A stretch of 64,000 nt of DNA from assembly GCF_965638725.1 (NCBI RefSeq), contig NC_134959.1, forward strand, positions 14,805,417 to 14,869,416, read 5' to 3'. Origin of the DNA: Aptenodytes patagonicus. Its lineage: Eukaryota > Chordata > Aves > Sphenisciformes > Spheniscidae. Positions 10,201 through 64,000 of the stretch are shown piece after piece; within the stretch, counting starts at the first letter, position 1, and every line of letters begins with the position of its first letter. The notes below the pieces were generated by a model, which saw only the letters and a list, made by a program, of their open reading frames with translations, made no database searches and had not been told where the DNA came from. A program made the translations under genes and the position numbers.

Positions 10201-13200
10201 AAATCAAGAATTGCGAGGAAGAGATAGCAGCATATCCTAGACAAGGCAGAAGTATTTCAAAACCAAATATTTTGCAAGAAAAATGGAATCTCATATGCTG
10301 TGTTTGTTTCTACAGAATAAATACACGTTATATCAACAGCTCCCTCCTCTACCCATGCGCTTCACGTAATGCAGATTCACATTGGTAGCCCACACACATC
10401 ACTGACGTGCAGTAAGTGCCATAAACTAAGTTCTAATAGCACTTGGCTCTTTCCCTCTGCATTCACCAGTGCTATACCAGCAGTGAGTCTCAGAGTATAC
10501 CTCTGAAGCAGATTAAGACATGCAAAGAAGAACAAGGACATCTCTCAAGTACTCTTAAGTTACTGGCTCTAAAAACTGAAGCCTCTCAGAATGACTTTTG
10601 TGCTTCCTAGATTAAAAAAAAAGAATCAAGTCCCTCGTGTTTCTGTTGAATCCTATTATCTATATAATCAGGATTTATCCAGACAAATAGTTAGGAGGAA
10701 ATGATGAATTTGCTATTAATCAGCAATATTTGCAGTTTATTTGCAGAAGTAACTATGGCTAATGAAACAGGTTACTCCATCCTGCATTAGACATGGCTCT
10801 ACAAGCAGAAATAGGAACACTTTGAGGAAAAAAGCAAATGCTCCCCCCAAACTCCACAAAAAGTAAATCCTTATGCAGAGCTAGTTTGAGATATTCAGTT
10901 TACTTTGTTTTAAGCTAGCTTTGTTTATGCTAGCAAGCCTTCTACCTTCTAGTTCAACTGAATCAGCAATGCAGAACATGCCATCTACAACATAGTGACC
11001 AGGACAGATGATGACTGTGTCTCCTTCATAACAGGCATTTACAGCTGCCAGTGGATCACTGTGAAACTGTAAAAGACAAATAATATAATCAGCTCCTGAA
11101 GAATGCTGTAAAAATGGATGCATCTATGCCCTTAAAGCTTGCTTTTTGATTAAATGTTGCTGCTTTTGCTTAAAAGAAACCCTTTTAAATGGTACCAGTA
11201 ATACACAATTTCTACTTTTAATTCAAGAATCACAGCACACTCTGGACAAAAAAGCCTTAAAACATTCCTTTGATGTTTGTGTCATGTCCACTCCCCCATG
11301 AGAAAACTGGGACAGAGACACAGATTGAAGAGCATATGCACCAGAAAGCAAACCTGAATATGGCCTTGGTTCCAGGCCAACACTTGAATTGTGCCTCAAA
11401 TGACTTGCCATGAGTTACTGAAGAAATAGATGACAGAAGGTAAAGAAAATAAAAAACACAAACAACTCAGCAACTAGATTTGAGCTGGTCTGAATATGGA
11501 TGTAACTCTCTGCTCCTGGTGCAAGTCACCCCAAAATAGAGTTCAGATATTACAGTGGCAAATATGGGGTCCACATGATCCTTTTTCTTGCTCAAAGAGG
11601 GCAGGCTGATATCCTTAACAAATATTACTGGGGGATTCTCTATTGAAGGATAACAAATAGTACAGAAAAATTGCACATTTATTGCTTCCCAGCAAATTCC
11701 AGGGCAAGCATAGTGAGACCATTTTTCAATGCCAAATCAGAAAATCTGATTTATAGCCCAAAAGTTAATCCAGGACCTTCCCTGTGGCTCCATTTCGGCC
11801 ATCTGTAATTCATGAACTTGATCAGAATACAGCAAGCAATTTCATTTGGGCCCAAGGAATCCAGGCTGTTCTTAACTACTGAAGTGGCAAGTCCTGTCTG
11901 AACTCACTGAAACTAAATGTAACTGCTCTAAAATAAATGTATCTCCTACATAGAACTAAAGCAACAGAATGACATTTCTTTCTTCACACTCTAGATCATT
12001 ATCAGTAGCATCCAAAGTCATAGGTATTTCAAAACTAAATATAAGTATTATGCCTTACCATGTTTCATTGTAGAATTATTACAGAAGGTTTATCTCAATT
12101 TCCTACACACAGGAAGAAACTGCTTGTTTAGAGTACTCAGCAGACACTAATTAATTAAAAGAAGTTATTTGTATCATCCAGTCTTACCACTTATTATTTA
12201 AATTACAGTGCTTTTTTTGAACTAACAAAAATAACACTGTGCAAGTGTAGTATCTTGCACATGATAATTAACTTATTCTTCCACATTGTTTCTTGAGGAG
12301 AAAAAAGTATTGGCAGACAGACAATTCCTGTTACTCTACCTGTATTTCTAGTTCTTCACCACAAGATTCAGGGCAAAGTTTGTCCCTTATCAATGACTGC
12401 AGCAGACTTGCCATCATGGTTGATGATACAACATGAGTTATCTTGGTACCCGTTGGTCTCAGTCCTTTAGCTTGGAGACCACTGTATTTTTGGTAACCAA
12501 ACACATACCTAAAACAAAAGCAACAAAGCCATCAGTTCTTTCTTCAGTAAAGAACGTCCATGTATAGTTTCCCATATGGCCCTCCTCCTTGCACAAACCC
12601 ACCAAGTACCTCAGCAGAGGATTCTCAATTAGTTTTAGCTTTTGTTTTAAGTGCTCTATTTTCTCATACAATTTTAGTCCTTCCACCATGGAGACGTTTT
12701 CTACTTCTGAGTCTGAATCACTGCTTGATATGCTGTTCCTCACATTTAAAAACTTCCTGTAAAGCTCTTCGCATTGAGACAACAAGTTCTGGTAATCAGC
12801 TACAAGCCCAGAAGGCACACGGTGTTCAAGGATGTCATAATGCCTGCAATTCAGAGCAAGGGGTCAGTATATTCCACATTTACAATTTTGAAAGATCAAA
12901 TACAAACCCAGAGAGAACCTGAGGAGTTCTGCATCAGTATTTTAGTAAAGATTCTCTGCAGTCTATATCAACACTGCTCAATTTTTTTTTAAAGCAGCAA
13001 AACCAAAAATCTGAACAGACACAAACATATTACTTTCTAAATAGTTGCCCATCCACCTTGAAAGATTATACACAATTATCAGAAACTCACTCCAAAACAA
13101 AGGCATAAGCACAGCTATAAAAAAAACAGTAAGAATTTAGAAGGTAATTAGATATAAAAATCAGTCTATTTTTAAGAATTTGTTAGAAAAACTGAGGAAA

Positions 13201-16200
13201 ATCTTGTCTGAAATAGAAGAAAAATCCTATAATGTGAAGTCTCTATTAGCAACAATCTAAACAACTACCTGGACAAAAACGCAGAATGAATAAGAAAGGC
13301 ATTATCAGCACCAGATGAAGATGTGAAGGCACTGCATAGTAAATTTTGCACCATCCCAAGAGTATCCTCTACAAATGAAACTGCAGGCCAGAAAATGCCA
13401 GCCCAAAGTTGCATTGCCAAAGTCAGAAAGATAAGGACATCTGCCAGCTAGATGGTGCCAAGAACTCCAGGGCCAATTATGTAGGACCAATAATGGTCAC
13501 TACAAAAAAGCTGGACAGCAATTAATTATATAAATAAAACAAGATTTAATTATTTCGCACCATGTTTGTAGGGAACCAGTTGAACACAGTATAAATAGCT
13601 CTATCCAAGAGGCTACATGAAATAAGGGCAAAGACGTTCCCTCAACTTTCAGAGGTTCTTTAAAGGGTGCACTTAAAGCATGCTGCAAAGAACTGGAAAA
13701 TTTGTAGTCAGAGCAGTCAATATCTATACAGTTGCAATAAACAGGGCATACAGAAACAGCCTCACAAAATTTTGGCAATGGGGTTATCAGAGGCAAAGAG
13801 TAGGTCAATGCAGCATGATTAACAGCAGAAGAATTTATAGCAATATAGAAATAGAAAATATTTGAAGGAAACTGAATGTTGTACATAATTTGGCCCTGAA
13901 ACGCATGCTCTACATTTTAGAGCTGGTCACTGTGAAAGCGCATTAAAACTATCTTGTTTTTTCAAGCTTTAGTTAAACAGTTCATACAGCTTTACTTGCC
14001 TCAGAAGACTAGTAAAACCTAATGTGCAGTGTAAAGATACTGTCTGTTCTCATTAAAACAGTGCACGCCGGAGACCTGAAAAGTTTAAAGCATCATAGGT
14101 TCCATGCATTGAAGATTAATGTTATTTCTGAGCTGACACATCAGTGCTTAGATCACAACGCAGGATAGCACCAACATCAGTGTAGCTTGGAGGACAGGCT
14201 TTGTATCAAGCACAGTATGGGAGAATAAGAAAGGATAACGTTTACTTTTCTGCTTGAAGACATTGTTTAAGCATTTTGGATTCTCACCAAAATGGCTGTA
14301 AGGCCACGCAGTGTTGAAAAAAATAAAAACATTATCGCATGGCACATCATTGCATTCTGGTTTCTTTCCATGTAAAGTCTCCATAAGGCTCCAAAAACTC
14401 AGAATAGCCATTTGCTGGAGCATACAAGTATAGACACTTCAGAAACATGTACAATTTCCATGTATAACACTTCCTCCTAACTTGTATGATCTCAGAAAAA
14501 TACAGGCATATCAGAGTCCTCAAATGTCACATTGTGTCCTGTTTGAAAGAGAGGCCTGCAGCCACCTTTATAATGTGGGTAATTACACTAATTTTGTTTG
14601 TAAAGCACATGCTATATGCTATATTCTAGCACATGTAACGCCATATGCTAAATAGCATTTCAGGGTAGGTTATAAATATTCACTGATGTAGATCCCCTGC
14701 ATCATAGCAGTATCAAACCTGGATATGAATGACACACAGACTTCCAGATACTCATGATGCACAGTTATAATAAGTAAAGGAATTGAAAACTAATTCTCAT
14801 GAAAGACTTAAGAAAAAGATAGTGTGTCAAATCTCAGGGGAAAATCTACAGTAAAAATCACTTTTTAATTATTCGTTCCAGGTATGTTTTATGGTGTGTT
14901 TTGGTTATTTAGCACCCTCAAAAATATAACCAGATTGTGTCCTTGTGCACTGCTTCAGTTCCATATGGCAGGACAACATTAAAAACCCACCTTCACAAAA
15001 CCTAATGCCGACTAATCCCACTAGGGAAAGAAATACACACATTCCTCCTTCAGCGTGACCAATTTACAAGTTTTTGTTTACATTCAGTTCCATTCTGGTT
15101 CTTATTCCATGCCCAGAGGGACCAGAGCATCCCACACTAGCTTTAATTAGGATTACAATTCATAGGCCTGCAAGTTGAAGGAGGCTATAGCTGGGTTTGG
15201 AGCGCCATCTGATGGAAGGTCAAGGATTACAGGGAAAAACTGAGGGTCCAGAAATCAAGTGGCAACCACAGTTGCACCCTCTTTCCATACAAAATTTTGA
15301 CCATCAAACAGTGAATGCTGTTAGAACAAACTTGCTTTGATTTACTAGTGAACAGGGTTTTTTTTAAAATCTAGTTGTATGTTGCTATTCCCACGTCACC
15401 TTTTCCTGTGGTTCTACCCTAATAATATCAAAGGTGTTGCACTTACAATCTCAGTCGAGGCTCAACACATCGCACAAAGTAATCAAAATCATCCTCCTCC
15501 TCCTCATCCCAGGTCCTCCAGATGCACTGGTAGAAGAACCTTTTGAAGCAAATTAAGCGTTTAATCACACAAAGGAGGCCACATTTACCTGAGCAGAGAC
15601 AACAGCACTGGAAACACGAATGTAACCAATTTGAGAATTCATCTCAAAGCATCACCTCTCTCCAATTCCATGTTACTGTCCTGTAAACTACTTAGAATAC
15701 ACAGAAGTTATCTTTGTCTGTTGTTTACCTACATTAAGACTTTTATTTTGTGTATCCAAGTTCAAAATTGATAATAGCCTGACTCCCACTTTCATCAAAA
15801 GAGAGTGAACAGCTAAAAGCTGGATTTGAAAACAAGACTTACACTCAAGATCCTGAGGCTTTTTGACTGTTTGGTTTTGGCCAGGCATCCTTCAGCTAAG
15901 CTTTCTTTTTGACAATGAGTTTGTCACCTCCATCATTCAAGTTTAGATCTCTACTACTAAGTAATTCTCAATAGAATGTGTCTCTTCTCCCCTTTTCCTC
16001 CCACACCACCACTTCTGAAACAGCCCATTTTCTAGACAGGAAGGTCATTCCTCCTGTTTTAGCTTTTTCATCCTGTTCTACTGCCTATTTGCAGACAGCT
16101 TTCAAACAGCACATAGCACATGAAAGCAAGGGAGATGGAAGAGAGACAGAGAGATGATAAAGAAAGGAAAAGAAAATAGAAGTAAGATGTGAACAGACAC

Positions 16201-19200
16201 CTGTAGAATAAAGAGCAAATTTAGGGGAGGAGGCAAAATGCAGAAAAAAGAAGAATGGGACAAAAAAAGGAAAAAATCCACCAAAATGTTATAGAAGAGA
16301 AAGGAACACTGCACTAGAGCCAGCAAGGTGACCCAAGGAAATCTGGGGTGGAGAAGAGATGGAAAGCAACGCAATTTCCCCCCCCTTTTGACACAGAAAG
16401 CAGACTGACAGTAAGCTGCAGGTAAACGTACTTTGTGATTGTGTCATTACCTGTAGCTGCAGAGGACACCACAGATTTTCTGTATGTCTTTCTTTCCTCA
16501 TAGTACCAGTCATCAGATTTACTTCAGAAAGCTTGGCTTGTTGAGCTGCCAGCATGACCACAAGAACTCAGGGCACCACCCATTGGACACTACCAGAGTG
16601 TAATTGTTCAAGACAAAAATTAAACCTTGAGATTCTCCTACCTGACATGCTCTACAGCTAGTGCTGTCTGGTCAAACTCTCCTGACTCATCATACACAAC
16701 CCACAGCTCCTGCAGTGGTATCTGACGCTCCTTGAGCTCCAAGAGTTCCTGCATGCACTCCAAGGTAAAGGTGCTATCTCGTGACTCGCACAGGAAAGGC
16801 TCACTGAGTTGCACAACTGCTTTCAGAGCCGAGTACTCCACATCAACCACCTGTTGGAACAAATAGTTCTTAAGATTTCTCAGAACCTTAGATACAGCCG
16901 AGGAAGGCTAACATGACTTGCGTAAGTCAGCAGGCCATACTGCAAGTGCCAGTTGACCCACACAAACCAACGCACATTGCATAGTACAGCAAAGGCAATC
17001 TATTCACCTGAAGTGATAACCCCAGAATTAGGCTTCTCAGAACCACATATCTAGAGCCTTTTCCACATTCCAAACTTCGTTCAAATCCCTCAATGCTCAT
17101 ACAAGGCCAGTAAGCTGCTTCCCTATTTTGGTTTTTTGTTTTGTTTTAAAAAACAGGCAAAAGCAGTATCCTCAGACTCAAACAAATCAATACCTTACAG
17201 TTCTTAGGGACTCCTTTGGGGCTCATTTTTCAAAGTGCCCACAAGACACAAACAATCCAAAGAGTTAGTCTGGGCCAGTGAAAGCCATTTTGTCACTAAT
17301 TGGGCTGAAAAGCTGAGGGGTACAAAGTTTTTCCCTCTTCAAACATGTAATGGAACTGCAAGTTTGAACATCCAACGTTTGCACAAAGATGCATGACTTG
17401 GACATTGAGACACCTAGAAAAGGAGTATTCCAAACCAGCAATCCTCAGTGGGTCTATAACAGGAGTATGCAATGCGGAAGTGCTACTGTCATTACCAGGG
17501 TGGGTTAAAAGGAAGAATGTTACTGATTAAAAAAAAAAAGGCAAACGATCAGAGCCTGGTATTTGAAAAGACGACATTACAACAGCCAGTTTGGACCAAG
17601 TACTTATCCCCTCTGTGCCCACAGAGTTCTACCTCACAGCTCACTCGCACTAACTTGGTGTTCCCCCTTCCAGTTTCAAGCAAGGAGCCCTTTGAAAAAA
17701 TTCCTATTGCTCTAGCCATGACTGGCAATTAGATATGAAAACATTACTATTTTCTACCAGCTCATAAACTTCATAGGCAAATGATCTGTCTGTTACAGAG
17801 GTAAATTATGTTAATTGGAGATAAATGCCTGAGCAACTGCATTCCATCTACCTCAACAAGGACCTCAAACACATTAGTGCGCCAAACTGCCTGCCATCCA
17901 GATGGTTCAAGGACCTTCTCCAGGTACTCAGCTGTGAATTCTTTCACCTCAGAAGCTTTGCAGTCAGCTAAAAAGAAATTGAAGACAGTACATTTATGCA
18001 AGGAAAGAAAAAAAAAGTCCTCCAGATCATTGGAAAATGAAAGTCAACACAGTTGAAATGTTCCTCTGCCACATCTAAAGTTGGACTTCATTCTGTTTTA
18101 CTCATGATAACAGTCAGCATTTTTGCTGTCTCTCTCAGTACTGAGAGCGCTGGAGAGTCATGCTTCTCTGGAAGAAGAGATCCAGTACTCAACCTTCCAG
18201 GTACTGAAGGTTTCAGTGCCAGGGGTATTAAACAGCTAACCTGTGCCTTATCTTAAACAGTCTTAATACACACAAAAAAGTTCTAGTAAGATCAGTTAAA
18301 ACAAGGCACAGAATCCAGTATTAGCAACTTTTCCTTTCAGTCATTCAGATTTTATTTACTTATATTAAAACCATTGCCTCCTGGTCCACCAGCTAGGGCA
18401 GCTGAGGTTACAGCATAAGTGACAGCAGCACACTACATCTTTTCTAGTCCCTGTTATTAAGAGCATCTCACAGTTTAATATGGAATTGACTCCATTTAAA
18501 CTGGATCATTTAAACAGTCACTACAACAAACATGACTACGTGTTCTTTTTCTACTAAGAAATTACTTACCCAAGATGTAATCCTGGTAAGCTTTAAATCG
18601 CTCGTAAAACAAAAGATGATCAGTGTGAAAAATATCTGGAAAAAGCACGTTCCCATCTGGCACAGTCCTTCCTAAAACAGTCCCTGGTTTGTCACGACTG
18701 CCATAATCACTAGAGGAATCATCATCTTCCTGGAGCAGATCTGGGGAGAGGAGCGGGAACAAAGCAAACCCCACAAACTGTCAGTTCAATGCAATCATCA
18801 CTCACTCCTCTATTCCCAAAGAATTGCTGTTCAGCCCAAGATCTATCGTGAACCTGCTTTCTACAACACATCTTAAGTTATCCTTGATGAAGAAACTATC
18901 TTACTTGGTTACTTGCTCTCTTCTTCAGAGTATTTACCCTGTCCCAAAAGAAGATCTCCCTACTTGTTGCCACCTGCCCTGAGCTGCAGTTACATGCTAA
19001 TTTACTTTGTTCTATATGTAAGGTCTACAATACTTTAGGTAATACATATTATGCTTTGTTAGTACACTCCCTGCATCACCCAGACGTGATATCAAGCAAT
19101 AATCCAAATGATTTTGGAACATGCATAAAACCAGCTGATCCCACACACAACTGATCCAAAATAATGCACAGGATTACTGTGAGCAAAGAGCAAAATATAA

Positions 19201-21158
19201 GTAAGATGCATAATAAAACTGCAGATATTAGTCTCAGCTAAAGATGTGTTTTCACAAGTTGCCCTTTCCTTCTCTTAAGTCTTTTCCTGTTCTTCAGTAG
19301 AAGCATTCTTTTTGTATTTTAATAAACTAACAAGTAACAGAGCCTCCACACCTGAAGTCTCCATGGAAATTCCAAGCAACATATTTAGACGGAAGGGGGA
19401 CAGTGTTGTAATTTTTAGCCCGCTTAAATGGACATTGGCTGAATCTCTACTTTGAAGGGCTCAATCCAATGATAGCACCCCTTTAGAAGTCTCCAAAAAA
19501 GCATCTCCAGTTGTGTTCTCATTACAAACTCAGTGAACTCAGTCACTGTTGGTCTTACAGTATCTCTCAAGTCCGGTCATCCATAAGTTCAGAAAATATT
19601 AGAGAGATGACTGCAGTAAACCAAGGGTGATGATGATTCAGGTCCTTTTTTTTTTCTTTTTGTTAATGTAACAGCTCAAGACACCTTCATTGTCCATAAC
19701 TTGACTCTTTAACAATCCATAGGCCTCTGCATTTTCATTAGACTACAGTCTAACCTTTACTATATACCTAAAAAAAAGAAGAAAAAATCACATTCTATTT
19801 CTAACGCATCCCTTACATTTCAGGATGTGTTATGAAAGCTAGCAGTTTTGGCCTCAAATTTGTTAAAGTTCTTACTTATCAGGGGCCAAACTCAATCAAC
19901 AAAACAAAAATCAGAACCAGTGTATAAGCCAATTACAAGTGCTTAGACAATATAACTTTTCTTTGCAGCAGAACCACTGTAATAACATGTAAAGAAAGGA
20001 AATGAAAAGGTAATTTTAATCATCAAGTGTGATTTATGTAATATTTTCAAAGATTCCTGTAAAACTGTAGCTATGTTACATGTACACTGTAAATAAGGGG
20101 TTTTTTCCTACACACCCATAATCAAATCCAGCAACTGTGATAGCGATACCCTGTACAAGACACACTATGAATTCCAGAGCACAGCATACGTTCCAGAACA
20201 AGCCATTAATTTAGCTTGCTCTTTGTTTACAAACTGCAAGCCTATAACCACATATCAATAATGATCTGGGACTGAATAATGATACTCAATAGATACTAAA
20301 AGCACCAACGTTCCAATATTGTGCTATTAAGGCAGAGGGCAGGGGAGTCCCTTCCGGGAAAGCCTTTTTCCTCCGTCAGCGTTTCAAACACATACGTGTT
20401 CCTGGACGCTGATTTAAATGCCTGGGGTATGCACCTGAGACACACGCCGTAAGTTCATAATCAAAAGGAAACAAATGTTTTACGTTACTGTGTTTATTTC
20501 CCAAGACACCCCTTTGTTCCCTCGCAGGGCCCCATTTCTAGCCCGCTCCCCACCCCACGCGCCGGCAGCCTTACGAACCGGGGAGCGCTGAGCCGCTGCC
20601 TGGGGAGGGCCCCGGGCACGGCAGCCTCCGTACCGGCACCTCCACGGGGGCGGACTGGATACAAGAAACGCTTTCCCCGTAAGGGCGGCCAAGCAGCAGT
20701 ACGGGCTGCCCACTCTCTGTCCGCGGAGGTATCCAAGCCCCGGCCGGAGCAGCTCTCAGCAGCCCGGTCCGATCTCACAGCCCCTCGCCCCGCTGCAGCC
20801 GCCTCACGCCGAGACGCAACCTCCAGCGTCGGCTTCCGCAGCTGCAGAGCCGCCCCGAGCCTGCGAGCCGCGCGTCCCCGCCTGCGCTGCCCTAAAGCGG
20901 GGCGGACGGGGCCAGCGGCCCTCCCGCGGCTCGCCTCTCCCTTTCCGAGCGGCGGCGGAACCGGGGCGCGCCAGGCCGTAGGCGGCCCCGCGCCCTTCCT
21001 CCCCTCGGGGCGGCCGCCCGGGACAGGGGGCCCCTACCTGGCTTCGCCTCCTGGGCGCGCTCCCGTAGGCCGACGCTGCTCACGGCCGGCAGCGCGGCCT
21101 GACCTCGCCCCCGCGGCCCCGCCGCCTCCGCGCTCTCCGGCAGCCCCGGCTCGGCCAT
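4281..21158 (-). CDS. SHCBP1: SHC SH2 domain-binding protein 1, complete, 13 coding exons
   Basis: Coding exons, 5' to 3': 21158-21038, 18740-18570, 17967-17852, 16850-16642, 15539-15447, 12843-12610, 12508-12340, 11066-10946, 7886-7755, 6819-6701, 5937-5851, 5507-5366, 4603-4281. All introns are GT-AG and all phases join, giving 2037 nt and 678 residues (human about 672). The start has a good context (agcATGg) inside the CpG island. The family binds the SHC1 SH2 domain, acts downstream of growth-factor receptors, and localises with centralspindlin at the midbody in cytokinesis. Visible features: an acidic run DEEEEDD near residue 217; a Ser/Asp-rich segment (SSSDSDSEVEN) near 265; from about residue 371 to 550 the right-handed beta-helix (pectin-lyase-like) region, with repeats such as GKTTLENCVLQCETTG and NNMIHNNEGYGVVL; and a highly conserved C-terminus ending NGKGSFGTFLF. 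Identity rests on recognising the family throughout. Confidence 0.96.
13328..13545 (+). repeat. Dispersed repeat, copy A (unknown family)
   Basis: About 215 bases in SHCBP1 intron 5 match, in inverted orientation, a segment at 36929-37145. Shared blocks include CCCAAAGTTGCATTGCCAAA, CATCTGCCAGCTAGA and GTGCCAAGAACTCCAGGGCC. Both copies end with an AAATAAAAC motif on the same relative strand. A frame open in the other copy is interrupted here by a stop (AGA-TAA at about 13431). It is probably an old retroelement or retrocopy; the family is not recognised. Confidence 0.75.
15201..15218 (-). promoter_or_regulatory. Candidate CTCF site in SHCBP1 intron 5
   Basis: AGCGCCATCTGATGG on the plus strand is the reverse complement of the common CTCF core form (CCANNAGATGGCGCT), so the site would point along the minus strand. 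Motif-only evidence. Confidence 0.4.
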
Positions 21159-21570
21159 GCTGCCCGCCCGCCCCGCGCGGCTCCGCCCGCTGAAATTTCA
21201 AACTTCCCCGGCAGCTAACCCTCTGCAACGTCACCGGCAGCCGCCGCCCTGATTGGCTAGCGGCAGCCGCGGGCGAGTCCGGCCGCAACGGGTAGGGCGG
21301 GCGGCGCCGGGGCCGTCGCGCGGCGGGGCCCGGTCGGGGCGCGCCGGCTCTGGGCGGCCGTTTACTGCCGGGGAGGGCTGGTGCGACGGTGCCCGCGGGC
21401 GCGTCCCCGCTGGTCGGGCGTGTGGCTAGTCGTGGGGCTCCGGCGCTGCCCCGCCGGGTGTTCCCGTTACCCGCAGTTGTGCCCGGCGGCGGGGATGACT
21501 GTGGCCGGTACTCCCGTTTTCCGGAAGGCTGGCCGGGCTTCCTCTGGAGCGGGGTGGCGGCCGGAGAGGT
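20520..21570 (-). promoter_or_regulatory. SHCBP1: CpG-island promoter of SHCBP1
   Basis: About 1 kb is strongly GC-rich with dense CpG, in sharp contrast to the AT-rich flanks. It covers SHCBP1 exon 1, the start of intron 1 and the upstream region. There is no TATA box at a convincing distance. Long open frames on both strands here (up to 189 codons) are by-products of base composition. The island extends about 400 bases upstream of the start codon, so divergent non-coding transcription on the plus strand is possible but not shown. Confidence 0.85.
21196..21256 (-). promoter_or_regulatory. SHCBP1: CHR element with upstream inverted CCAAT box in the SHCBP1 promoter
   Basis: On the minus strand, TTTGAAA at 21202-21196 lies about 38 bases upstream of the start codon, with a G-rich CDE-like stretch just 5' of it. 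A CCAAT box (ATTGG on plus, 21252-21256) lies about 50 bases further upstream. A TGACGT-type CREB/ATF half-site falls between them. This arrangement is typical of G2/M genes controlled by the DREAM and MYB-MuvB complexes together with NF-Y, which fits SHCBP1's role in cytokinesis. Function is inferred from motifs. Confidence 0.6.
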
Positions 21571-22660
21571 CGGAAACGGAAAAGGACGCTTAAAACTTTC
21601 CACCTGTCAGTCATAACCAAACCGATAAATTGGGTCCGTTCTTACTAGAGAAAACAGGGAAGTGCCGGCGAGGATGGGCAGCGCCCCTTCAAAACAGAGC
21701 TGTGCTTCCAGAGGTGTTTCTGTCCCTGCGGAGAGGTGTTTCCACAGCGCACTGAGAGAAGGATCAGTCGAGCGTGGCCGCAGAGATGTAAAAAAACCCC
21801 AACAATCTCCCTCCCCCCCAAAAAAAATAAAAAACCACGAACGTAATTCACTGAACGGCTTCTTCACGTATCTCCAGGAAAACATGCTTTGCTTTCAGCT
21901 CTGACCGGCTGCTACACAAAAGGCACCCGATCAAAATTTAAAGCACAGTTCTTTTCCCCTCTGAATTTCTCAGTGCTTTCGACTTTGTGTCTCATCCATC
22001 TTAGCATTAGCATCTCCCATTTGTCTTGACATCTCTTCACAATCTGTTTCATGACCCAGCTCTTCTCTTCAAGCCGCTGTTTGTGTTTTGAGCTCTGTTA
22101 CCACAAGTGCCAATAAGGATTAGAGTCAAAACAAAGTAAGTAAGGTTGAGCTAAGCAGTTGGAAGACATTAATATTTAACTGAGTAGATATTTAGCAAAG
22201 ACGAGGTGACTGCAGGTCATTACAGGATCTGGGGACAGGCAGGAACTGAAGAAAGAAAAAAAATTCAAGATGCTCCAGGAAGAATATGCAGCCCTCTGTG
22301 CAGTGTAGTTCAAAAGAAAGAGAGGATCAGTGTCCTGTGACAGAAGACAACCGCGCAGATTTGGGATAGTACAGATTCTGTTCATGTAACACACCTCTGC
22401 CAATGCTGAAGCCAGGTATGTAGGATTGCCACTGTAGGCCAGGCTTTAGAGAGCTTCTCCTGGCAATTCAATCATTTCAGGTGAATACCACACAAAAACT
22501 GGTTTTGACCTGTATTACCACCACAGGTTGTTGGTGTTATCAACACCTTTAACAAGTGTAGCAGCACACAGTAGAAATTTTAAATCGGGAAGCATTCATT
22601 TCTCCTCCAAACAATGGCTATTTTTAAATGGTTTTTGAAACAATTGCTTCAAAACACAAA

Positions 22661-33129: not shown

Positions 33130-33985
33130 GCGTACTTACTTCCAGACAGCATAGCAGCATTGTGGGAGACTACAATCTTACCTTCAGGAATCCCAGGCCC
33201 CTGAGGCCAGTGGAAAAGCCTGGAGCAAGGAAGACATACCATCAGTGGAGGAGGAACAAATCAGGGAACATTTAAATGCAGTGGACATACACATGTCCAT
33301 GGAAGCTGATGAGATGTACCCAGAAGTGCTGAGGGAGCTGGCCCATGTCACTGTGAGGCCACTCTTGATTACCTTTGAAGGGTCATGGTGATCAGGGAAG
33401 GTTTCAAGGAAGAAAGCAAATGTCACTCCTATCTTCAAGAAGGGCAAGAAGAAGGATGCAGGCAACTGCAGGCCAGTCAGCTTCCCTCGATGCCTGGGAA
33501 GGTGATAGACCAAATAATTCTGGAAGCCATTTTCAAACATATGAAAGACAAGAAAGTGATTGGGAATAGTCAGCATTAGGAACAGGAAATCATGCTTCGC
33601 CGACCTGAAACAACAATGAAATGACTAGCTCGGTGGATGAGGGGACAGCAGTGGATGTTGTTTATCCTGACTTTAGCAAGGGTTTCAAGCACTGTCTTTT
33701 ATTACATCCTTGTAGACAAACTGATCAAGTATGAACTAGATACAAGGACTGTGGATCAAAAACTGATTGAACTGCCTGGGTCAAAGGGTTGCTGACAGCA
33801 GTATGAAGTCCAGCTGGAGGCAGTCACTAGTGGTGTGCCCCAGGGGTCGATAGTGGGGCTGACACTGTTTAACCTCTCCATTAATGACCTGGATGATGGG
33901 ACAGAGTGCACCCTCAGCAAGTTTGCAGATGATACAAAACCAGGAGAAGTGGCTGATAGATGGAAATGCCCATCCCATCCATTAT
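33130..33985 (+). mobile_element. CR1 LINE, internal fragment with reverse-transcriptase region
   Basis: About 850 bases of a CR1 retrotransposon, truncated at both ends. Landmarks in order are GGCCAGTGGAAAAGCCTGGA, the RT-domain blocks encoding VDVVYPDFSKGF (about 33654-33690) and TSGVPQGS (about 33827-33850), and the second catalytic block KFADDTK with the conserved Asp pair (about 33919-33940). Frames are broken by stops and indels, so no active protein is encoded. The element is the same clade as other avian CR1 copies. Confidence 0.9.
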
Positions 33986-34958
33986 GTGCTTTAAACAAAA
34001 ATTCTTCTTTTGCTGACACAAGGGCAACTCCATTTAAACTAATACCAATATAAGAAAAAATGAATGTTCCTTAGGTAAAAAGCTCAGCCCCATACATGGT
34101 AAGACAGTGGTCCCATCTGTTGTTGGAACAAAGCTTTGAGGAAGCAAACAATAAAAATCCAATTAAAGCTGCATTAAAACACATGCAGTAGAGGGTGGCC
34201 TAATTCCCACAGCTCCCAGGCAGTATTGCTCTGGTGTACTCAGCAGCTGCTCAAAGAGCTGGTGTCACAGGGAAGCATGGATGTGCTCAGCTGGGTGGGA
34301 ACTGGCTGGCAGCATGGTGTTCTCAGTGGATGAAAAAAAATTGTGTTCACGATGGTGCTGATGAATAAAGGCTGACTGGCTAACAGCATACCCATCTCCT
34401 ATCTCATCTTTAACATACTAAATATGCAGCTTCCTGCTAGACAGGTAAAACTCCAGCACTCCCGATCTTGCCTATAAAAAGCATCTTTTACTAACGTCCC
34501 TCTATTGGTATCAAGCATTCTGCAACACTCATAACCGCACCACTAGCATGTGCTTGTCACTGATGTTTTTATTCCCATATTATCTAACTCCATTCAAAGT
34601 AATACGGAGGTTCATGTGTTGTCAGTGGCAACAGTATGTTAGTTACCAGTACCATGGTGCCCTGCATGGCACACTATCTCCGGTTTCCTGCTGAAGTCTG
34701 GAGGAGTGAACCTCTTTCAGCAGGCACTGAAATACAGCAGATGACCTGAAAAGCCTTTGCAGGTATATCATCAATATACTTCTAATAAATGTGCTCAGTG
34801 AGAGATCACACTTTTGACAAGACTGCAGACAGACTCCTCTCAAAGCCTTCCAAGAAATGGCACAGTCCTAATTCCCCGTATGTGGCTTCATAAAAAGGTG
34901 GTGCTGTCCACGGCTTAACACTGGTACCTAGCCAGATCTTTCACCTCTGAGAAGATAA

Positions 34959-44385: not shown

Positions 44386-44525
44386 ATAATAATAATAATA
44401 ATAGAAGAAAAAAGAGAAGAAGAAAGAAGAAAGAAGAAAGAAGAAAGAAGAAAGAAGAAAGAAGAAAGAAGAAAGAAGAAAGAAGAAAGAAGAAAGAAGA
44501 AAGAAGAAAGAAGAAAGAAGAAGAA
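44386..44525 (+). repeat. (AAT)n then polypurine 7-base tandem repeat
   Basis: An (AAT)5-6 run passes into an uninterrupted all-purine tract at 44403-44525. Most of that tract is about 15 copies of the 7-base unit GAAAGAA. Because 7 is not a multiple of 3, all three minus-strand frames encode the same cyclic Ser/Phe/Leu peptide, which creates false open frames. Confidence 0.97.
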
Positions 44526-52000: not shown

Positions 52001-54650
52001 GTTATCCTGTATGTGAAATCCTAGGACTAAAACAAAGTATCTTTAAAAGGAACAAGCAGAGGAAGAAACATTATGTACAGTATGTTATTTGGTAAAAGAC
52101 ACAATGATTTAGCTTTGAGTTCAGATTCAGGCAAAGATCCAATGTAACTGTGCTTACCACCTTACCTAATTGTACTTCAAAGAAGATATTAGCTGAGAAG
52201 GTCTTCTGCATCTTCTGAACCAATAGGCTATACAGCCAGCTGGAGTCTACCCCCTCTCAATGTGGTTGCCCAAGTCTATCTGGAAGCTGAATTTGGGCTG
52301 TTCTGGGAAAAGTGTCATCTGTCTGCGGTGTAGGAAAAACATTCTGTTTTTCTATCATTTCTGTAGATATACTCACCCACATATACTACAGTCATGGGAA
52401 ACTGCATGATTCAGACAGCTCTCTATTTCAAAAATCACTGAATGAAGTCTTATGGAAATGAAAACAATTATCACTAAAGAAATCACAGGAAACAAACATC
52501 AAAATTTCAGATCACGTCAGTATTGATATGCCTTGGAAAACATTGCATATTTCATTATTTTCTTGGGCTACTGTCACTCATCTTTACCAATTCTAATCAA
52601 TTATGTCTCTTGCTCCAAGGGTTAGATAAAGATCAGGAATAAAATATGTTTTCAGAAGTCTACAATTCAGTCTTACACAAAGACATTTTATAAAGAGTTC
52701 TTCATCTACTTTAACTTCATCCCGCAGGATCCATTAATCACAGTGTTCTCCCTCCAGGATGGACTGCTTGGACAATGGAGCCGATGAGGTATAGCTCTCT
52801 TCTCTTTCCTGTGCTCATTTTAAGATTTTTTTTTTTCCCAGTCTGTGCATATATTTACACCACCATAACATATATTTTGAAGTGAAGCTCTTTTCCCAAG
52901 AATTAATGTTCTTAAAAGAAAATCAACATAGCTCAGTAAAATGACAGTAGTTCATGTCCCATGAACAAATCCTTTTTCAGGGAAAAAATGTTTGAAGTCT
53001 GGATTTGTAAAACCTGCTGTTCTGAGTACTGGCCACCTAGTGCACACTTCGATTTGCTGTCTGCAAGGGTCTCCGGACAGCACTAGTAGAGTCTTAAACA
53101 GTAAGTCCCCAAAGTGCAGAATTATAGACCGATAGTTCATGCTTTTAGGAACAGAATTTTGTTAAGAGTTGCAGTTGTCATGCCTTGCCAAAGCAGCAGT
53201 AATAAAGGAGCATCAGAAGACAGTAAAGGTGGTTCTTATGGGACTTACTGAGAATCTCAAAATCTGCCAGGGGGTAATACACTACAAAAGCTACTTCAAA
53301 TACAGTACATAAGCGTACATGCTGCAAACTCTCTGAGCTGCTGTAAAATTACCTTACATTAGAGGAGTTAAAGAATATAGTAATTATTCGTGAAAGAATA
53401 AATGAATTCTCCCATGTTTTCCTGATGATTGAGATATTTATTTTTTCTTCTTTTTCTTGGCTGCCTCTTTGATCTTTTATATTGCACAGCACAATCAGAT
53501 AGCAGTAATTATCAACAAGCTTAATCCTGCCCAAACTGAAGTTAATGGAAAACTGCCAACTGGGCTCAAAGGGAAGTGAAAATGAGTCCCCAAATTACGG
53601 AATAATAATAATCACTGTGGTGATAAGCTAAGGCTTCAGTGTTCCTGTCGCTTTTGCTTTGTGTGCCTTTACTTATTTGCTTTAGGGAGATAATGATATG
53701 GGGGCATGTAAAAAGAGTATTTTGCTCATACACATTGGACATACAGCTGCCATTTCTGTCTCTGGACTGACATAAATAGAGAGGCCGTATCATAAGCAGT
53801 GTAAATTGCAAAATCTCCTCTGTGGAGCTACTGATTTGTAGGGATTACCCGGCCTGGAATTTGTACTTCCAACATCAACAAAGGCTTGATGCTTCCCTCT
53901 GGGGAAAAGGCCAGTCCACCGTTACCCTGAGAATACATGCTCAACCTCAGACCAGTAACAGACAAGTTATTAAGCTGTTCTTGCTTGTCTTACCTGATGT
54001 CCATTTGAATAGCTCTCTCTTTAGAAAGCTGCTGTAACTGCTTCTAAATTTATTTCAAACTGGAGATTTATACAAATCTTTTATAAAAGAGTTTACCACA
54101 TGTGAAACATTGGCTGAATTAAGTGAAGATTATGCATATCCAATGATTGTTTTTGAGCAAGTTCTGTTTTCTTTTAATGACAGAGGCCATACCAAAGGCA
54201 GCAAGTCCCAAACTGCTTACAGTCTCTAGGAAACTCTCAGGGAAAGGCAGGCAAAGCCCATCAATGGCCACGTATTTTAAGGCAGATGATGATCCAGTAG
54301 GCCAAATCATGAGAGTAGAGGTAGGCCACATTTCCCCTCTTAAATTACCCTTCAGTTTTGACAGACTTCAGCAGCCTCTGCAGCTCATTCAGGGGTCACT
54401 GTGTCCCACTCCTCCTCCCTTGCGCTGGGTCAGCCATCTTGCCAGAAGCTAAAAGAAGTCTTAGCCCTTTACCTGGCTGCTCACATGTTTGGTTTCTGGA
54501 GTAGATCTGCCTTCTGTGATAAAACTGGCTCTCCAACATCATTGTCACAATGCACTTTAAAATACTAAGTCCACTGCCAGTTTTGGAAAGAGAGGTCTCA
54601 GAAATACTGTCTTCCTGAAAGTTTTGTGAAAACGAGTAGCCAGGCACGGC
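49016..54650. other. Intergenic DNA upstream of the H3-like receptor
   Basis: AT-rich, with no gene I can support. A CTCF-like motif (TGGCCACCTAGTGCAC, about 53030) and an AAGATGGCTGACC-type YY1-like motif on minus (about 54430) are the only noticeable items. Open frames reach 122 codons (50405-50773, minus) with no family resemblance. Confidence 0.55.
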
Positions 54651-54659
54651 AGTGAGACC

Positions 54660-55620
54660 TTCTTAGTGCTCGCACACGTGGAAAGGCTGAGGCAGCCACA
54701 GCCGCATCCGCCCCACGAAGCTGCAGGCAGCGAGCTCACCCGGAGGCACAAGATGGCCGTCCAGCGCTTCGCCATGCTGCTGGCTCTGCTGGGCCAGCCA
54801 AACGTTCAGGTGAAAGGGGGCAGAAAGTCTATTAGAGATAGCAGAAAGCAAAGATCATTTGAGGACTCTATGGGCCATAGGAAAGAGCTGCAGATATGGT
54901 GCAGGGCATGAGCCATAGAAACAAGGCAGGCAACTGAGACTACCCCACCAGCCACAGCGTAACGAGGAGGCAACTGGGAGATCTGTTGAGAGAGTGGGCG
55001 GGCAGCCGTTGGGGAGCCGTTGGAGAGCCGTTAGGAGGGCGGGCGGCCGTTGGAAGCGTTACTTCACGGCGCTTCACAGAACGGGTTCGTGAGGGAGCCA
55101 GCCTGCGGGCAGCGGGAACGGGTCTCTCCCGCCCACAGTCCTGACAGCGCCGCGGTAGGACTCCGGAAAGTTTTGCCACACCGGCGCCGTCCCAGCAACG
55201 GGTCGGAGCCGAGCGGGCTGCGGGCAGCGCCGAGCCGCACGTCAGCCGCCCCCTCCCCCCGCCCGGCGGGGGCTGTAACGGGGCAGGGGCGGTGCCAACA
55301 GCAGAGCGGGGCTAGCGCCAGAGCCGGGCAGCGGCGGAGCGCCGCGGGCTCTCCGCCGGGAGCCATGGGCCAGGACTTGCCGTGGCTCAACCACACCGGC
55401 AGCCCGCGGGCGACGGGCAACGCCTGTGCGGCGGAGGGGCAGCGCGGCGGGCCCTTCGCCGCCGCCACCGCCGCGCTGCTGGCGGCGCTCATGGGGCTGC
55501 TGGTGCTGGCCACGGTGTTGGGCAATGCCCTGGTCATTCTGGCATTCGTGGTGGACCGGAGCCTCCGCACGCAGGGCAACTTATTCTTCCTCAACTTGGC
55601 CATCGCCGACCTCCTGGTGG
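54660..55620 (+). promoter_or_regulatory. HRH3-like: CpG-rich promoter region of the H3-like receptor
   Basis: GC content and CpG density rise from about 54660 and peak at about 55000-55620, covering the receptor's first exon. It has GC boxes (GGGGCGG-like) and four CCGTT(G/A) motifs in a short degenerate tandem array at 55005-55056. No TATA box is evident. The open frame running into the receptor from 55050 is probably a composition effect, since it would add 105 Pro/Arg-rich residues before the normal N-terminus. Confidence 0.7.
54666..54911 (+). other. Candidate small first exon or upstream ORF
   Basis: Within the 81-codon frame, the ATG at 54753 has an excellent context (AAGATGG) and begins a hydrophobic, signal-peptide-like stretch (MAVQRFAMLLALLGQ). 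After 19 codons there is a good splice donor (CAG|GTGAAA, about 54809). It could be an alternative 5' exon, a separate small gene, or chance in GC-rich DNA. The AAGATGGCC context also matches a YY1 motif. No family is recognised. Confidence 0.25.
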
Positions 55621-58600
55621 GTGAGTTCCGGGGCGCCGGGAGGGGCGGAGGGTTGCGGTCCGTGGCACTGCACGCGTCACCGCCAAGCTCTGTCCGCAGG
55701 CGGCTTCTGCATCCCCCTCTACATCCCCTACGTGCTGACGGGCAAGTGGAGACTGGGCAGGGGCTTGTGTAAGCTGTGGCTGGTGGTAGACTACCTGGTG
55801 TGCACCGCCTCCGTCTTCAACATTGTCCTTATCAGCTTCGACAGGTTCATCTCTGTCACCAAAGCGGTAAGGGCTGGGCAAGCGGTCCTGAGGGTGGTCT
55901 GCAGGGGCTCCAAGGCTGCCCTTTCAAGCAGGATGGTTTGCTTAGGTCACCTGGCTCTCAACCCCATTGCACCTCACTCAAACACCATAGGAGGCGGGGG
56001 GTAGCTAGGCAGTTCCCCTCGGTCTTGGAAATAGTTCTGGGAGTGATCAGGTTTGGTAGAAAAGACATTTGCTTCTCACTTTTACAGTGGAAGAGGTACT
56101 CTGTTTCAGAAACAGACACAGTTTCTATATGCTGCTGTTTGGGCTAGAAGGTCAGAGGGAACAAGGTGTACTTCCTTCCTTCCCAGCCATACCTTGGATA
56201 AACTTAAAAAGTACTACCCAGCTGAAACAGACCATCTCCCTCAGAACATGGCAATGCACTTGTTGACAACTGATAGCCCAAGCCAGCCTAGCTGCATCCC
56301 AGCTGCAGCACAAGGCAGAGAGATCTCCTCGCAGTGGTACCAAACTATTGAGAGAATTAGATGTATACAGCTGTATATGGTTCAGAAGTGGCAAAATATA
56401 AATTAACATTAACGTCTTTCAAAGGATGCAAATGCCATTTCCATGTAACAGCCACAGAAATAACTAGAGCCTTGCCTCAGTCATGTCAGTTATTGAAAAA
56501 GGAGTAGACTAGACTTTGCAAAATCAAAAGGTAACTTCATTTTCACCTAGACCATACTGCCTCGAAGTATTTTGGATGGTGCCGAAATAACACATTTTAC
56601 CTGCTAATAGGTTTCACTCTTTTACACACACTTCTTGATTTTTCTTCAGCCCCCTGTTCCACCCACATTTCCTTAAAACGTTAATTTCGCATCATAGCTC
56701 ATTCTAAATCACACTAAGAGGCAATGATACTTTTTTGGCAAACAGTACAAAGAGGCTGCGAGATCACTTTAACAGTTTAAATGCAACTTAGTGTTTTACC
56801 AACTTCTTTTTGAAGAGGGAGAAATGAACAGATTAATTCTCAAACAGTCAACACTTACAATTCCTTTATTTTCTAGGTTCTGAATTAGCCATGAATTCTG
56901 CTTTCATAAACCAAACTCTCACAACTATTCACATAGTATAAATATATAGACTGGATGGTTTCAGAAACAGAAAGGGATACTGGTCATAATAAGTGAAAAA
57001 AATCAGCCACTTTAAAATACTTCAAATTAATCCTCCATATAAAAATTCTTCCCCAAGCAAGAGTACAGAAGTTGCCTGTTGGGTTAGGGCAGTATAAGAA
57101 CATATGAACAGGAATATATGAAGTTCTAAATTATTCTCTATCTCAATAAAAATGGTAATCTTTCTACAAGACTGCTCCTGAAATCATTAGTAGCTTTGTC
57201 AAGGATTGCAAAATCAGACCCGATTCAGGGAAACTCAGGATTCCTCAGCTGCGTGGGTATTCCACCAGAATAGCATTGGCTTTGGAGATCAACAAATTGG
57301 GGCAGTAAACATGAATCCTATACAGAACTCAAGCTTGAGGACTTCATATTCCAAAACACTGTGTGGCCACTGTAGAGATGCGAAGATTGAATTCCAATCC
57401 TCTATATGAGTATTGTCCAGTACACCAGAGAATTAGAATATTAATTAGATCTTGATTTTTAAGATTCTATTGAATTCTATTGCTGGTACAGTTTACTGAC
57501 TCAGTATTACTGACATACTTTTTTTTTTTTTGCACCTTAGCTGCTCTATTTTCTAAATAAGGGAAATTAGTTACTCCTCTTGTAAAGCACTTTGCAGACC
57601 ACAACACTCCATCTATACATCTTAATTGCAGATAGAAGTTCTGCAAGTACTTCATAAAAGAATGAAATTAAGTGTATCAAACAGAAGTAAAAGCTGTTAT
57701 CCATAAAATTTTTTTGTGTGATTTTCATATTAAGAAAAAAAAAAAAGGCTTTCCCTCTACAAACCAGAAAGAAAAGAACTTGCATGGGTGTTCTATGAAT
57801 TCAGATCCTTTTATGTATTTTAAATTAAATGATACAAAAATTCTAAAGAAGTTAATTTTGAAGGGCTGTGTTTTTAGACATTCTGTAAACTGGTGTCACA
57901 GCTAATGCAACTGCGTATGTAAGCAACTGGTGACAACCAATTCTAGTAATAGGAGTGGTTATTTGCCTTGGAAAAGCCTTGGTTTTCTAGCTTTTAAGAG
58001 CTGATGCACGTTCTCAGAACATATCCAGTCACCTTGATAATGTTTGTTGGAATGGCTATTTCAGAAATAGCTTTTCTGTGGTACCAGTAAGCTTGATATA
58101 ATCCTCATCCCTAAACCAATATATTATCAACCTTCACAACTGACAGAGAGGGTCATATCCCGAGGTAGCCATGTAACTGTTTGAGATACTAGTAATGTAT
58201 GTGACCTAACTTCTCTCTCTCTCAGGTCAGTTACAGGGCTCAGAAAGGGATGACCAGAAATGCAGTGCTGAAGACTATCACTGTATGGATTGCTGCTTTT
58301 CTTCTCTATGGTCCAGCCATTCTCAGTTGGGAGCACATTGCCCAAAAGAGCATCCTCCCTGAAGGAGAATGTCATGCAGAATTCTTCTACAACTGGTTAT
58401 TTCCTGATGATTGCCTCTACTATTGAATTCTTTACACCTTTCATCACTGTTACATACTTTAACTTAAGTATTTACCTCAACATCAGGAAACGCACATCCC
58501 TCAGAAATGAAAACCTATCACCTGGTCAAGAGGACTGTGAAATGAGTTTCCAGGGGAAAAAAAGGGAATACACTGTATTTTTTTTAAAACCTGCTAATAG

Positions 58601-59114
58601 ACACAAACATGAAAAGAAGAGAGCAAGCAGCCTTTCTCCCCCCAAAAAGGCTTCAAGGCTCAGCCTACATAAGCTTGACAATCAGTCATTAAATTTGAAT
58701 GCCAATCAAGACCTTCCACCACTGCAAGTGGAAGTCGAGACCAAGTCTCATAGGAATGGTTTCTACAAAACTACAGAAAGTGTATGCAATGCCACCAGCA
58801 GAGTGGACATTGCTAACACTATGGCAAATAGATTTAGGCTTTCCCGGGATAAAAGAGTAGCAAAGTCTTTAGCAATTATTGTCTGTGTGTTTGGTTTGTG
58901 TTGGGCTCCATATACACTTTTGATGATCATCAGAGCAGCTTGCCATGGGCACTGTGTGCAGTATTCACTCTATGAGACTTCATTTTGGCTTCTGTGGGTG
59001 AATTCAGCCATTAACCCTGTTCTATACCCATTGTGTCACATGAGCTTTAGGAAAGCCTTTATAAAACTCCTGTGTCCAGGAAAAGCCAAAATTCATCCTC
59101 ATATTTTAATGTGA
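55365..59114 (+). CDS. HRH3-like: Histamine H3-like receptor (class A GPCR), three exons, one frameshift
   Basis: Exons 55365-55620, 55700-55866 and 58226-59114; introns of 79 and 2359 bases with GT-AG ends, phases 1 and 0. The product would be 436 residues (human HRH3 445) were it not for one surplus T at 58397-58398. Read literally, translation stops at 58424-58426 after 207 residues. Features in order: N-glycosylation site NHT near residue 9; TM1 with GNALVILAFV; TM2 LAIADLL; TM3 LCKLWLVVDYL with the amine-binding Asp; DRF at its end; TM4 to ECL2 with ECHAEFFYNW; then, after the shift, TM5 ASTIEFFTPF with the H3/H4-type Glu, TM6 FGLCWAPYT, TM7 NSAINPVLYPLCH. The family is a Gi-coupled histamine receptor at the plasma membrane. 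It is far closer to H3 than to H4. Either a very recent pseudogene or a sequence error. Confidence 0.9.

Positions 59115-62389: not shown

Positions 62390-64000
<1,611 letters not shown>

Follow-up and report, generated by a model that had tools for sequence, protein, structure and literature searches.

Between SHCBP1 and VPS35 in the genome of Aptenodytes patagonicus lies a gene that resembles the histamine H3 receptor; to our knowledge, human has no receptor between these two genes. The locus raises the question of whether this gene is a third member of the H3/H4 subfamily or a relocated HRH3, and whether it still encodes a receptor. Taken as a whole, the explanation in which we place high confidence is that it is a third H3/H4-type gene, most likely HRH5, that it is probably a duplication copy, and that its exon 3 is broken in this assembly by one surplus base. 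The window, meaning the whole 64,000-nucleotide stretch that was analysed, corresponds to C11:14805417-14869416 in a genome of 1.352 Gb in 618 contigs; coordinates given here without a contig are those of the window.

Structure and family of the receptor gene

The gene, which is of H3 type and class A GPCR character, occupies 55365-59114 on the plus strand and has three exons with GT/AG splice sites. Exon 1 (55365-55620, +) begins with the ATG at 55365 and, by alignment with H3, covers the N terminus, TM1 and the start of TM2; a GTGAGT donor follows directly. Exon 2 (55700-55866, +) covers TM2-TM3 with the DRF motif, and is preceded by AG and followed by GTAAGG. Exon 3 (58226-59114, +), 889 bases long and net one base out of phase, runs from TM4 to the C terminus, with the final TGA at 59112-59114. 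A GC-rich stretch around exon 1 (54900-55900, limits set by eye; 58% GC in the bin 54001-56000) is likely to be the CpG island of the receptor promoter. Among the other 2-kb bins there is a second GC-rich stretch at 20001-22000 (61% GC), perhaps the SHCBP1 promoter, and the remaining 30 bins have 33-44% GC.

To the left of the receptor is part of SHCBP1 (10884-16907, minus strand), in which two of the tested ORFs (16641-16907 and 12462-12863) match Pfam SHCBP_N and two (10884-11123 and 14151-14438) had no match in the Pfam search. To the right are the last two coding ORFs of VPS35 (62393-63999, minus strand), a gene that continues beyond the right edge of the window. The ORF at 63844-63999 matches Pfam Vps35 and that at 62393-62569 gave no significant Pfam match by itself; searched jointly, the two align with the C-terminal end of VPS35 over all residues (99 of 99). 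Because VPS35 is on the minus strand to the right of a plus-strand receptor, the two genes converge. The exons, the splice sites and the Pfam matches of both neighbours thus bear out the initial annotation in its placing of a three-exon, H3-type receptor gene between SHCBP1 and VPS35. Elsewhere in the window, ORFs at 33155-34050 (+) resemble pieces of a CR1-type reverse transcriptase, as judged by eye from the translation only, and at 44403-44522 the unit AGAAGAA is repeated 17 times in tandem.

Pfam 7tm_1 matches the receptor in two pieces (119.5 and 70.3 bits, profile positions 1-141 and 153-260), and it is only when both frames are counted that the class A (rhodopsin-like) profile extends over TM1-TM7. 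The best solved relatives are PDB chains named histamine H3 receptor, with E values of 3e-83 for TM1-ECL2 and 2.2e-62 for TM5-7, the former of which rules out a chance resemblance to H3. From these chains and from the tree described below, the nearest aminergic relatives are the H3/H4 receptors; the PDB H3 and H4 chains used here are presumably human. The gene retains the key residues, namely the TM3 Asp, the TM5 Glu (STIEFF), DRF, CWAPY, the cysteines of TM3 and ECL2, and NPxxY, and all of the H3 motifs picked out earlier (DRF, AEFFYNW, STIEFFTPF and MIIRAACHGHC) were found in the sequence. By analogy with H3, an intact receptor of this kind would most likely be Gi-coupled and histamine-sensing.

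Three H3/H4-type loci in one genome

The counterparts of HRH3 and HRH4, for which the initial annotation had proposed searching the same genome, proved to be an intact gene on C14 and a multiply broken one of HRH4 type on C2. The search, made with the TM5-7 piece of the window gene, gave 69 places, of which the top three were the window itself (100%), C14:4202111-4202779 (53%) and C2:52275508-52275732 (68% over 75 residues, with one stop); a second piece of the C2 gene was the last of the 69. No second copy or allele of the window gene was found among these places, identity dropping from 100% to 53%. The C14 gene is an intact HRH3, with three open exons and a protein that runs to ...NCWK. In the C2 gene (C2:52275508-52282310, minus strand) all three exons are present, with several lesions: the pieces of exon 3 are in three frames, DRF has become NSF, and TM6 seems to have lost bases where it begins. 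Ahead of TM1 no in-frame ATG was found, although the start may lie in an upstream exon. This gene looks dead, and we class it as a pseudogene. The genome therefore holds three H3/H4-type loci, the window gene standing beside HRH3 and HRH4 as the third.

The window gene has much in common with HRH3 on C14 and in human: three exons, 75-76% identity in the TM regions, the TM3 Asp, the TM5 Glu and DRF. The motif MIIRAACHGHC is found in the window gene and in human H3, whereas C14 has MIIRAGCHGHC. The 76% identity to human H3, and the fact that its best solved relatives are H3 chains, would suit a one-to-one HRH3 orthologue that had relocated, a possibility that the initial annotation had kept in play. 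The window gene differs from HRH3, however, in its chromosome and neighbours, in its broken exon 3 frame and in its position in the tree. The seven-row tree, which includes the window, C14 and C2 genes, human H3, human H4 and an H1-like outgroup, and which contains no H5 sequences, pairs C14 with human H3 (83/97, not starred) and leaves the window gene outside. Trees with a window and C14 clade (AU p 0.018) or a window and human H3 clade (0.019) are both rejected. In TM-block identity, C14 and human H3 agree at 86%, and the window gene is at 75% to C14 and 76% to human H3. It is the C14 gene, not the window gene, that groups with human H3 as a one-to-one orthologue of HRH3 would. An intact HRH3 on C14 with OSBP and GATA neighbours and pairing with human H3, together with the rejected groupings, contradicts relocation, to which we assign only a very small probability; the same evidence upholds the earlier suggestion of a third H3/H4-type paralogue. 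From the tree and the identities, the split between the window gene and HRH3 is most likely older than the split between birds and mammals.

The relationship to HRH4 is less sharply drawn. The window and C2 genes belong to one family and share the three-exon layout and LYE in place of WYE; identity is only 62% to C2 and 50% to human H4, and C2 is a pseudogene by several lesions, where the window gene has a single break. The tree pairs C2 with human H4 weakly (76/93) and the branching order of the H3, H4 and H5 lines is poorly supported (30/22), the outgroup split being the only one starred. Holding the window gene, C2 and human H4 together costs 0.47 lnL (p 0.40) and is not rejected; in this tree, long branches lead to human H4 and to the H1-like outgroup. 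Since C2 is closer to the window gene (62%) than to human H4 (51%), its name HRH4 rests more on its neighbours than on the tree: of the window and C2 genes, only C2 has OSBP and GATA nearby.

These neighbours also bear on the origin of the three loci. The distance between OSBP exons and the receptor is 51 kb on C14 and 109 kb on C2, and C11 has none of the 42 OSBP places in the genome. GATA fingers lie at C14:3.87 Mb (0.33 Mb from the receptor) and C2:53.15 Mb (0.87 Mb from the receptor), and none of the 17 GATA finger places is on C11. The pattern fits the human neighbourhoods, in which HRH3 goes with OSBPL2 and GATA5, and HRH4 with OSBPL1A and GATA6. Cerebellin-type last exons were found among 36 C1q-domain places, about three of which were translated, so that further cerebellin may lie elsewhere; they are at C11 15.89 Mb, C14 7.33 Mb and C2 64.66 Mb, respectively 1.02, 3.1 and 12.4 Mb from the receptor. 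When the C11 and C14 exons were searched against PDB, a three-copy cerebellin-1 fusion topped both lists, and the best single-copy chain was cerebellin-1 for C11 and cerebellin-4 for C14. In human, CBLN1 is at 16q12, CBLN2 at 18q22 and CBLN4 at 20q13. The presence of OSBP and GATA near the C14 and C2 receptors, and of cerebellin on all three chromosomes, fits an origin from one ancestral block, of which the three H3/H4-type genes would be the copies left by the early vertebrate whole-genome duplications; the three gene families were picked with the human map already known, and the cerebellin links on C14 and C2 are loose. Nothing useful on a SALL and cerebellin paralogon was found among the literature matches listed.

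The frame break in exon 3

The coding length of the window gene is 256 + 167 + 889 = 1312 bases, one above a multiple of three. Frame A ends with ...ECHAEFFYNW at 58396, and the H3-like frame B restarts at 58398 with YFLMIASTIEFF, so that the break (58396-58398, +), which leads from FFYNW in frame A to YFLMIAS in frame B, contains one surplus base at 58397, and AEFFYNW and STIEFFTPF are in different frames. Past the break, the spliced reading continues with LFPDDCLYY and stops at a premature TGA (58424-58426, +), giving 207 aa that lack TM5-7 in place of one ORF from start to stop. Two parts of the initial annotation fall with this result: that one spliced product carries H3 signatures throughout, when they are split between frames, and that the gene is intact. 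The break also serves as a warning, as any gene model that spans it would be wrong. Nonsense-mediated decay is not expected for a stop in the last exon, as is the case here, and a product of 207 aa that lacks TM5-7 would not be expected to work as a receptor.

A full receptor could be made if a +1 frameshift were programmed here or if an intron had been overlooked, but all that speaks for this is that the sequence is well conserved to either side of the break. The C14 HRH3 runs through the equivalent position unbroken, and in the PDB H3 chains NW is followed directly by YFL; with no spare residues in either, no intron fits, and we know of no frameshift signal of such a kind in a nuclear receptor gene. 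We consider that a full receptor is made in this way to be extremely improbable.

Other features of the gene point to function until recently. Differences between the window and C14 genes fall on the three codon positions as 44/30/145 over 257 codons, and on the two sides of the break as 27/18/74 over 144 codons and 17/12/71 over 113. In the tree, none of the seven end branches is shorter than that of the window gene (0.068). Periodic differences on both sides, combined with this short branch, are as expected of a gene that worked until recently. When columns with a single odd residue were counted among the window gene, C14, human H3 and human H4, the numbers were 12, 6, 5 and 83, respectively; with C2 added as a further row they became 8, 3, 2 and 42, with 14 for C2. 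The 12 against the 6 and 5 of the HRH3 rows weighs slightly against recent function, bearing in mind that the window gene is also less closely related. Its 12 unique columns are mostly conservative, less so M to T, L to A and W to L, the last of which is common to C2. The gene would thus have worked until recently, and the surplus base at 58397 would leave at most a 207-aa product.

Since the rest of the gene is intact and conserved, the break should be either a null allele that is very recent or still segregating, or an assembly error, and we regard these as near even. For a real loss, fixed or segregating in the species, we would put the chances at one in two. The assembly shows the break clearly, the HRH4-type gene of the same genome carries several lesions, and in the accessible part of a published survey the distribution of H5 among vertebrates seems scattered (PMC6504862). 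Against it stand the length of the end branch, lower than for any other row of the tree, and the lack of a second lesion, so that any loss must be young.

The same wholeness of the gene, in which splice sites and start are in place and no stop other than the final one was found in the open readings of either frame, marks the break as a lone lesion, which together with the mostly conservative substitutions is what would be expected if it had arisen in base calling or assembly and the animal had a working H5 receptor. That assembly errors may exist here is suggested by a gene on C24, presumably alpha-2-adrenergic-like, whose TM1-5 and TM6-7 are in different frames. The break itself (GGTTAT) is outside any long homopolymer, however, and such errors are seemingly uncommon per gene. 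In the 150 of 151 7tm_1 matches that were listed, 124 rows extend over the profile, and by eye 122 of the 124 are without a stop. Six of the other 26 rows, which are partial, were inspected, five showing by eye no frame change, and looking as introns would make them, and the C24 gene showing one. As this list favours intact genes, it bounds the error rate only loosely. An error that masks a working receptor is, on balance, a little short of an even chance. The frame change on C24 (C24:5911126-5912168, minus strand) lies in a GC-rich third loop and is itself either an error or a real lesion.

The published H5 group and possible receptor losses

An H5 (HRH5) group has been named in the H1,3,4 subtree (Rinne et al., 2019; PMC6504862). 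In the accessible part of that survey it is placed in the set without human orthologues and is present in sauropsids, and, like the window gene, it is a third group of this subtree. Matched through this published description, the window gene is most likely the HRH5 orthologue. The paralogue is accordingly not an unreported one, and its supposed loss in mammals is too strong a claim, because the H5 tally includes ‘mammals(4, 2 marsupials)’ (PMC6504862). The accessible text of the survey, which gives for the group (e.g. ENSLOCP00000006664) no locus, function or frame break, was found to make no mention of the SHCBP1-VPS35 locus or of a dead HRH4 beside an intact HRH3 (PMC6504862).

The naming of H3, H4 and H5 genes in birds looks confused. 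As far as the accessible text of a broiler study goes, an extra H3-like receptor is named there too, HRH3L, which lies on GGA2 near 103.45-103.53 Mb, unlike the window locus (PMC7318453). Its chromosome rules it out as the window locus and suggests that it is probably the HRH4-type locus, so that HRH3L appears to be in use for a probable HRH4. In a zebra finch paper HRH3L stands in a marker table, its locus not given in the part available (PMC7599217). An ‘HRH5’ in the accessible part of PMC12752978 seems to be a mistake for HRH2, an entry in that paper's table. In what is available of PMC5334454, zebrafish is apparently without Hrh4, and no third paralogue of H3/H4 type comes up. The literature matches listed include no functional study of H5, a scope outside which most subscription journals fall.

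Four receptors make up the histamine pharmacology that is usually taught. One survey, to judge from its accessible part, gives a name to another of H3-like kind, which human lacks and many other vertebrates have kept (PMC6504862). Pinning it to a SHCBP1-receptor-VPS35 locus, linked to the chromosomes of HRH3 and HRH4, makes its origin and its losses easy to trace. The main point of interest is a possible double loss, in which two of the three H3/H4-type receptors of this lineage are gone or disappearing, HRH4 as the earlier loss and HRH5 as one happening now, a proposal that we hold tentatively and think somewhat less probable than its opposite. Were it true, H3/H4-type signalling would rest on HRH3 alone, and such a natural double loss could reveal what HRH5 is for.
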